From Patescibacteria group bacterium (GTDB taxonomy: Bacteria > Patescibacteriota > Minisyncoccia > Phycocordibacterales > GWA1-40-21), in contig JAGWZI010000004.1 in the NCBI GenBank assembly GCA_018968925.1, positions 1 through 39,959 on the forward strand: 39,959 bases of DNA, in the 5' to 3' direction. The notes below the pieces were generated by a model. That model was not told the origin of the DNA. It saw only the letters and a program-made list of their open reading frames with translations, and did not search any database. The position numbers and the translations under genes were made by a program. Positions 2,435-36,889 of the stretch are shown here, piece after piece; the stretch's first letter is position 1, and every line of letters starts with the position of its first letter.

Positions 2435-2466
2435 TTGTTTATTTGAACAAAATGAAAAAAATCGAC

Positions 2467-2551
2467 CATAAGGCCGACAAAAAGAGTGTCGTATGACCTC
2501 GACCGGTCCTTTCGATTATGGCTTTCGCCACCGGTTGTCTTTGGCCTTATG
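2467..2551 (-). promoter_or_regulatory. Ribosomal protein L10 leader RNA (rplJL autoregulation)
   Basis: Minus strand reads CATAAGGCC-AAAGACAACCGGTGGCGAAAGCC...GGACCGGTCGAGGTCATACGAC...GGCCTTATG: 9-bp closing stem, paired ACCGGT and the AGACAnCnGGUG / CCGGUCGAGGU signature of L10 leaders, just upstream of rplJ. Confidence 0.82.
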
Positions 2552-2633
2552 AAAGGATAATAGCAGGAATAAGGAGAAAAGTAAAGTAGTATTCTTTACT
2601 TCATTAATAAAAATAAGATGTTAGAATGCCGTC

Positions 2634-11878: not shown

Positions 11879-11895
11879 ATTCGACGAATTCAAAT

Positions 11896-11929
11896 AAAAA
11901 GGGCGGCCGCTCCGCGGCCGCCCTTTTTA
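11896..11929. terminator. Bidirectional terminator
   Basis: AAAAAGGGCGGCCGC tcc GCGGCCGCCCTTTTT in the convergent gap. Confidence 0.9.
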
Positions 11930-11951
11930 TTTCTTTATCCCGAATGAGGGC

Positions 11952-28454: not shown

Positions 28455-28676
28455 ATGACAAACACTGACATTGCCGCGTATGTCACCGGGCATCCGTGGC
28501 TCATCATTATCGGGGTGTGGGAAGCGGTCTGGAAGCTCATCGCGCTCTGGCAAGCGGCGCGCCGGAACCATCTGACCATGTTCATCATCATGGCGATCCT
28601 CAATACCGCCGGCATCCTGCCGATCGTCTACCTCCTCTGGCTGCATTTCAAGAACAAGAAACAACAGGCCCAATAA
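28455..28676 (+). CDS. Small membrane protein, DUF5652-like
   Basis: MTNTDIAAYVTGHPWLIIIGVWEAVWKLIALWQAARRNHLTMFIIMAILNTAGILPIVYLLWLHFKNKK. Confidence 0.75.
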   Translation: MTNTDIAAYVTGHPWLIIIGVWEAVWKLIALWQAARRNHLTMFIIMAILNTAGILPIVYLLWLHFKNKKQQAQ

Positions 28677-28766
28677 AAAACAGCCGCGCGAGGCGGATCA
28701 TTTTTGCGAGGCGGGGCAAGGTCTGGTCAGCAAAAAATGATTCGCCGAGAAAGCGGCTGTTTTTTA
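28675..28766. repeat. Conserved-loop hairpin element, copy 1 (probable bidirectional terminator)
   Basis: AAAAAACAGCCGC...ATCATTTTTGC-[GAGGCGGGGCAAGGTCTGGTCA]-GCAAAAAATGAT...GCGGCTGTTTTTT. Confidence 0.9.
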
Positions 28767-34307: not shown

Positions 34308-34871
34308 ATGATTGCGAAACTCGAGGGTATTGTGTGGGACGCCAACCCGAAATTCCTCACGGTCGGCGTCGGCGGCGTCGGTTTCAAAGTGTACGCGACG
34401 AATGAAACGAAATCCGTGGCACAAAAAGGCGCGAACATTTCGCTCTTCACACACCTCGCCGTGCGCGAAGACGCGCTCGACCTGTACGGTTTCCTTTCGG
34501 AAGAAGAGCTCGATCTCTTCGAGCTCCTCATCGGCGTCTCGGGCATCGGCCCGAAGACGGCACTCGGCGTCCTTTCCGCAAGCTCGCCTGTCGCCATCAG
34601 GACTGCGGTCGCAAGCGGCGAGACCGCGCATCTCACGAAAGTCTCCGGCATCGGCAAAAAGATCGCCGACAAGATCGTCCTCGAATTGAAAGACAAGATC
34701 GGCGCAAGCGGAAGCGGCGAAGCGCTTTCCGGCGACATCGACGCGATCGAGGCCTTGCAGTCGCTCGGTTATTCGCACGCCGACGCGCGCGACGCGCTTA
34801 AAAAAATATCGAAAGAAATCGCGAAAACCGGCGATCGCGTGAAAGCGGCGCTGAAAATTCTCGGAAAGTAA
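34308..34871 (+). CDS. ruvA: Holliday junction branch migration protein RuvA
   Basis: MIAKLEGIVWDANPKFLTVGVGGVGFKVYA...LLIGVSGIGPKTALGVLS...KVSGIGKKIADKIVLELKDK. Confidence 0.95.
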   Translation: MIAKLEGIVWDANPKFLTVGVGGVGFKVYATNETKSVAQKGANISLFTHLAVREDALDLYGFLSEEELDLFELLIGVSGIGPKTALGVLSASSPVAIRTAVASGETAHLTKVSGIGKKIADKIVLELKDKIGASGSGEALSGDIDAIEALQSLGYSHADARDALKKISKEIAKTGDRVKAALKILGK

Positions 34872-34940
34872 ATCGGCGGACAAATCATTTTTGCTGACCA
34901 GACCTGGCCCCGCCCCGCAAAAATAACTTGTCCGCCGATT
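34871..34940. repeat. Conserved-loop hairpin element, copy 2 (probable bidirectional terminator)
   Basis: AATCGGCGGACAAATCATTTTTGC-[TGACCAGACCTGGCCCCGCCCC]-GCAAAAATAACTTGTCCGCCGATT; loop is the reverse complement of copy 1 at 20/22 positions. Confidence 0.9.
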
Positions 34941-36855: not shown

Positions 36856-36889
36856 AAAAGGGCGGCCGCGAAGCGGCCGCCCTTTTTCT
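36856..36889. terminator. Bidirectional terminator
   Basis: AAAAGGGCGGCCGC gaa GCGGCCGCCCTTTTT. Confidence 0.9.

Follow-up and report, generated by a model that had tools for sequence, protein, structure and literature searches.

The window analyzed here, a 39,959-nucleotide stretch of a Patescibacteria contig (JAGWZI010000004.1), carries two hairpins about 6 kb apart at the positions given by the sequence-only reading, each in a gap between convergent genes and each with its stem 2-9 nt from a stop codon. Copy 1 (28675-28765, plus strand throughout) runs from the stop codon of a DUF5652 gene to the T-run of the gap, on the far side of which lies the convergent gene for a methylguanine methyltransferase DNA-binding domain protein. 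Its outer stem, terminator-like and specific to this copy, is formed by AAAAAACAGCCGC (28675-28687) and GCGGCTGTTTTTT (28753-28765). An internal loop (GCGA at 28688-28691 on the 5' side, GAGAAA at 28747-28752 on the 3' side) separates it from a middle and inner stem comprised of GGCGGATCATTTTTGC (28692-28707) and GCAAAAAATGATTCGCC (28730-28746), the latter with one bulged A, and the conserved apical loop, GAGGCGGGGCAAGGTCTGGTCA, occupies 28708-28729. Such a purine-rich internal loop is kept in some copies, copy 1 among them, where the purine-rich 3' side resembles that of copies in another genome, G159. Copy 2 (34871-34940, minus strand throughout) lies between ruvA on the plus strand and a convergent, unassigned gene on the minus strand. 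Its apical loop, GGGGCGGGGCCAGGTCTGGTCA (34895-34916), is closed by an inner stem with one arm nearer ruvA (34884-34894, plus strand ATCATTTTTGC) and one opposite (34917-34927, plus strand GCAAAAATAAC), with two of its pairs being G.U when read on the minus strand, and by an outer stem of 34871-34883 (plus strand AATCGGCGGACAA) and 34928-34940 (plus strand TTGTCCGCCGATT).

Twenty of 22 positions are the same in the loops of the two copies (28708-28729, plus strand, and 34895-34916, minus strand), and the outer stems are unlike in sequence yet pair in both; on each point the earlier reading was confirmed. The predicted folds are far more stable than those of dinucleotide-shuffled sequences (z = -8.4 for copy 1 and -10.5 for copy 2), with none of 200 shuffles reaching either value. 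Two matches to the loop pattern, allowing three mismatches or fewer, are present in the window against 0.13 expected. At the gathering threshold Rfam gave no match at the hairpins, and relaxed searches returned only weak miRNA noise. Elsewhere in the window, 2445-2562 (minus strand) matched the Rfam ribosomal protein L10 leader at 45.6 bits, just above the gathering score of 44.

Few dispersed repeats are expected of streamlined, very small genomes. A search of the genome from which the window comes (579,453 bases in 31 contigs, 92.9% complete) for more than the two copies available to the sequence-only reading found 14 true hairpins. A scan with the loop pattern at three or fewer mismatches gave 15 places, 14 of them the hairpins, while the reversed pattern used as a control gave six matches; ten of the 14 copies match GGGGCNAGGTCTGGTCA exactly. 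With these 14 copies as its basis, a covariance model (R1) recovered all of them and, beyond them, nothing except their opposite strands. All are intergenic, none overlapping a called gene, and in 12 the distance between a stop codon and the start of the stem is 0-22 nt; of the remaining two, one lies at a contig end, 33 nt from the nearest gene, and the other is 83 nt from its nearest gene. Five of the six copies in tandem gene contexts are in the gene sense, a bias that alone is not significant, and no close pairs occur among the 14. The genes beside them, which include ftsH, ruvA, glyRS, ruvC, yebC, ftsX, rpoD, parB, rny and HU, share no theme, and a regulon of flanking genes was ruled out because these neighbors are unrelated housekeeping genes.

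The tip of the hairpin is its conserved part, and the arms are free to change provided that pairing persists. Over 22 nt in the 11 ungapped copies of this genome, the loop (GAGGYGGGGCNAGGTCTGGTCA) is 92% identical, compared with 62% for the left arm and 58% for the right. Compensatory stem changes are abundant: double changes occur in 15 of 26 consensus stem pairs in the own-genome alignment and in 14 of 17 outer pairs in a cross-genome alignment, the observed values of which were reached by none of 500 shuffles. That loops were conserved while stems drifted implies either selection at each copy or continued turnover. Within the inner tip, YKGGG is able to pair with UCUGG through G.U pairs; in the cross-genome alignment four of the seven tip pairs vary on one side and none on both, with switches between C-G and U-G and between G-U and G-C. 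On the loop strand, G.T combinations outnumber A.C by 13 to 3. This asymmetry stands on the first 20 stem pairs only, the counts over whole arms, with the less certain outer stem included, being similar (24 and 20). The preference for G.T over A.C hints that the loop strand is what folds, as RNA or as single-stranded DNA, and the earlier suggestions of a protein site or an RNA motif stay viable on account of this tolerance of G.U over A.C. Four GG tracts are present in every loop type examined, so that the sequence would permit a G-quadruplex tip, but ViennaRNA favors it in just one copy, from genome G373.

The hairpin has relatives in other genomes. R1 detected homologs in four of 397 genomes of the order (G146, G159, G244 and G373). 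A second covariance model, of the core (R2), found copies in six genomes of the same sample (two in G146, one in G152, two in G159, three in G244, one in G368 and four in G373), one further copy among 384 genomes of the class (in G440) and none among 380 genomes across the phylum; the three samples overlap. The carriers outside the own genome are therefore seven of the roughly 770 order and class genomes sampled, with one to four copies each and belonging to different families. Common to all is a tip core, GG[CT][GT]GGG N1-5 GG[TG]CTGG, atop a palindrome specific to each copy, and one clade closes this G-rich apical core by TTTTTGC/GCAAAAA. The loop is identical in the three copies of G244 and in the two of G159, identical or nearly so within G373, and different between genomes. 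Tandem contexts outside the own genome comprise three copies in the sense orientation (L161, L162, L168) and four in antisense (L154, L160, L166, L178). Scanning GTDB contigs and IMG/VR for the exact loop brought up no hairpin that carries it; three IMG/VR matches to a first loop pattern are not hairpins. No earlier description of this hairpin element was found in the openly licensed literature.

None of the outcomes that would have refuted the sequence-only reading was observed, given the 14 copies, the covarying stems and the homologs in other families. Within the genus, none of five genomes carries a real copy, whether sought by covariance model or by loop pattern. The weak model matches that turned up in these congeners and in G028, G041 and G109 proved to be coding sequence or unrelated palindromes. 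G028 (L043, C10:119960-120037) and G041 (L045, C24:43256-43329) have in common one nearly perfect palindrome, GCGGCAAATTATTTGGCGGAC...GCAAATAATTTGCCGC, which seems to lie within a coding region. Aligned DNA between the congeners is about 67-69% identical over longer matches, so they are not close relatives. The suggestion that the loop might be an uptake-type tag does not fit a sequence with 14 copies per 579 kb that is absent from five congeners.

Among orthologous gene ends that were readable and bear a hairpin, the congener G002 has plain short-loop hairpins followed by T-runs at the ends of ftsH, ruvA, glyRS, ruvC, rpoD, rny and the DUF5652 gene. G002 also has repeated terminators of its own, AAAAGGCGGGTTCGCGAAGCGAACCCGCC and AAGAGCGGCGCCGAAGGCGCCGCTC (L113-L143, for example C2:19833-19885 and C2:37983-38047), which indicates that near-identical terminators recur inside these genomes. 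Another hairpin occurs five times in the genome of the window (11892-11932 and 36856-36886 of the window, and G000 C15:16184, C30:19802 and C30:35707). Its stem is conserved and its loop is 3 nt long (AAAGGGCGGCCGC ... GCGGCCGCCC), and it resembles an ordinary terminator with a single common sequence.

Some copies lie within transcribed units. Of the G146 copies, one (L163) falls in the helix 25 region of a 23S rRNA gene and another between the 23S and 5S genes. The G146 assembly is a MAG whose contamination is estimated at 4% and in which several divergent 23S copies occur, a caution for the 23S placement. In the same-genus genome G080 the base of helix 25 matches (GCATCACATTG...TGTGATG), and the tip differs and is without the core. 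Three divergent 23S copies of G146 (L194-L196, on C55, C41 and C56) each have a different long expansion of helix 25, and these divergent copies may reflect a mixed bin. A group I intron was also seen in a 23S gene (L155). In G159, one copy separates an ABC ATPase gene from the gene for its permease; another copy is directly ahead of a start codon. The copies in 23S rRNA helix 25 and in the ABC-transporter operon imply that the element is not essentially a terminator.

Inverted ends (TTGAATTACRAAA and similar) enclose the copies of G244 and G159. In G244 the ends TTGAATTACRAAA also flank palindromes of 43, 62 and 139 bp that do not contain the core, which suggests that this genome has modular palindromes with exchangeable tips. 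These palindromes, with the same ends and other centers, are at C47:3440-3482, C56:1133-1194, C20:3300-3438 and C43:2322-2460 (among L239-L244); two of the L239-L244 palindromes have a common apex, GAGCGCGACGGCGCGAG, on unrelated paired stems. When nine genomes were searched with the G244 end sequence for a parent transposon, nothing but short palindromes came up, and the one 2.4-kb pair of ends, in G244, falls on ordinary genes. No target-site duplication was seen by eye at the G244 and G159 copies, where the flanks often prolong the palindrome, nor did any empty site from the same species come to light. No convincing candidate for a reverse transcriptase or a HUH protein emerged from a crude motif scan.

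With moderate confidence, we interpret these hairpins as a new family of small (about 50-110 bp), interspersed, palindromic and non-autonomous mobile-like repeats with a conserved tip. The dispersal of the copies, the conservation of the tip and the covariation of the stems are direct observations. We infer mobility from distribution and context: the patchy occurrence, the genome-specific loops, the mixed orientation outside the own genome and the copy in 23S rRNA argue for a mobile-like element, and for the same reasons a mobile-element core was the best fit among the functions initially proposed. In such an element, a folded single strand of the G-rich-core sense, either single-stranded DNA or RNA, would be recognized by a trans-acting protein. 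The tip of that strand would fold as a short G.U-rich helix, and copies would have settled at sites tolerant of hairpins: the ends of genes, terminators, the apex of helix 25 in 23S rRNA, and palindromic repeats of other kinds. A more specific version is that the element is a mobile hairpin tip, a G-rich core of about 40 nt that would spread by capping hairpins already present, whether terminators, palindromic repeats or rRNA helix 25, with the variable but fully paired stem taken from the target or rebuilt by fold-back copying and the folded strand recognized by a putative protein; we regard this version as speculative and, as a full account, rather doubtful. If the element is mobile, it would point to a mechanism, not described so far, by which short hairpins spread, rRNA helices included.

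The main rival is an RNA hairpin that serves the host at the 3' ends of mRNAs, its G-rich tip bound by a lineage-specific protein that stabilizes or processes transcripts or helps to terminate them. The short gaps to stop codons in all own-genome copies except two and the gene sense of five of the six tandem ones suit a 3'-end function and count against a mobile element, as does the failure to find a transposase, a target-site duplication or a same-species empty site. The favoring of G.U over A.C on the loop strand, the alternation of C-G with U-G and of G-U with G-C in the tip and the retention of the loop across diverged stems are also consistent with a functional RNA. A shared 3'-end role is harder to reconcile with neighbors that are unrelated housekeeping genes, with the mixed orientation elsewhere, with one copy in 23S rRNA and one ahead of a gene, and with a patchy distribution in which the same gene ends of a congener bear plain terminators. 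We consider the host-functional explanation possible but less likely than a mobile-like element; were it correct, an RNA tip at gene ends would be recognized by a putative protein.

It is improbable that the hairpins are functionless DNA palindromes, kept paired by mutation through quasi-palindrome template switching and with tips swapped by gene conversion. The stems are indeed long and mostly Watson-Crick, double changes far exceed single ones, and both G244 and rRNA helix 25 show nested palindromes with differing tips. Both the excess of G.T over A.C and the tip core common to distant families nevertheless need more than neutral correction.

The possibility that ordinary intrinsic terminators were duplicated and then diverged, with the loop as a passenger, draws on the gene-end position, on the clear T-runs after the stem in four of the 14 copies (L001, L002, L007, L011) and on some outer arms (AAAACCGC) that resemble the plain terminators of the genome. 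The other ten copies have no clear U-tract, and a loop of 22-24 nt is out of keeping with ordinary terminators: among 111 intergenic perfect hairpins in the own genome (stem of at least 10 bp) loops are mostly 3-8 nt, and those of 22-24 nt belong mainly to the conserved-tip family. This bears out the original remark that the conserved loop exceeds what a terminator needs. As the loop is also far more conserved than the stem, across families too, and homologs sit inside 23S rRNA and an operon, this origin is very unlikely.

A REP/REPIN-type identity, with movement by a RAYT (TnpA-REP) transposase, is largely refuted: the hairpins are palindromic, interspersed, intergenic and mainly downstream of genes, as REPs are (PMC3733652), but the own genome has no Y1 transposase (PF01797; none at E <= 1, with 10 of 14 control genomes positive), the tip rather than a constant GTAG or CGTC foot is conserved, and the 14 copies are neither high in number nor arranged in close inverted pairs.

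Comparison with known systems places the family beside several of them. Like intrinsic terminators, the hairpins form stem-loops straight after stop codons, in four cases with clear T-runs; unlike them, they have a long conserved loop, mostly lack a U-tract and have homologs within transcribed rRNA and an operon. Intervening sequences of 23S rRNA insert in helices 9, 25 and 45, with helix 25 a hot spot (PMC4990558). They too are patchy hairpin insertions at a helix tip, and one G146 copy shares the helix 25 site; they are confined to rRNA, whereas the tip described here is found mostly at the ends of protein genes. MITEs resemble the family in being short, non-autonomous inverted repeats, and conserved inverted sequences (TTGAATTACAAAATG) form the outer ends of the copies in G244 and G159. 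The copies of the own genome differ from MITEs in lacking conserved ends, with the center as the conserved part and no target duplication seen, and no parent transposon was found.

A further likeness is to REPs and REPINs with their RAYTs, which are short, interspersed, intergenic palindromes, mostly 3' of genes and family-specific per genome (PMC3733652, PMC8266576). The defining feature of REPs is a GTAG or CGTC tag, and those of the GTAG type are proposed to move via RAYT transposases that act on folded single-stranded DNA (PMC3733652, PMC8266576), a proposal that resembles the folded strand envisaged here. The present hairpins differ in having no such tag (a constant tetranucleotide at the foot is absent among the 14 copies), no RAYT found, a low copy number and variable stems. 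The element works like a REP or a MITE, and membership in neither is claimed. In REPs the foot of the hairpin is conserved and here the tip is, so that a 579-kb genome keeps 14 hairpins with a fixed tip and a free stem, the reverse of the tag-at-foot design of REPs.
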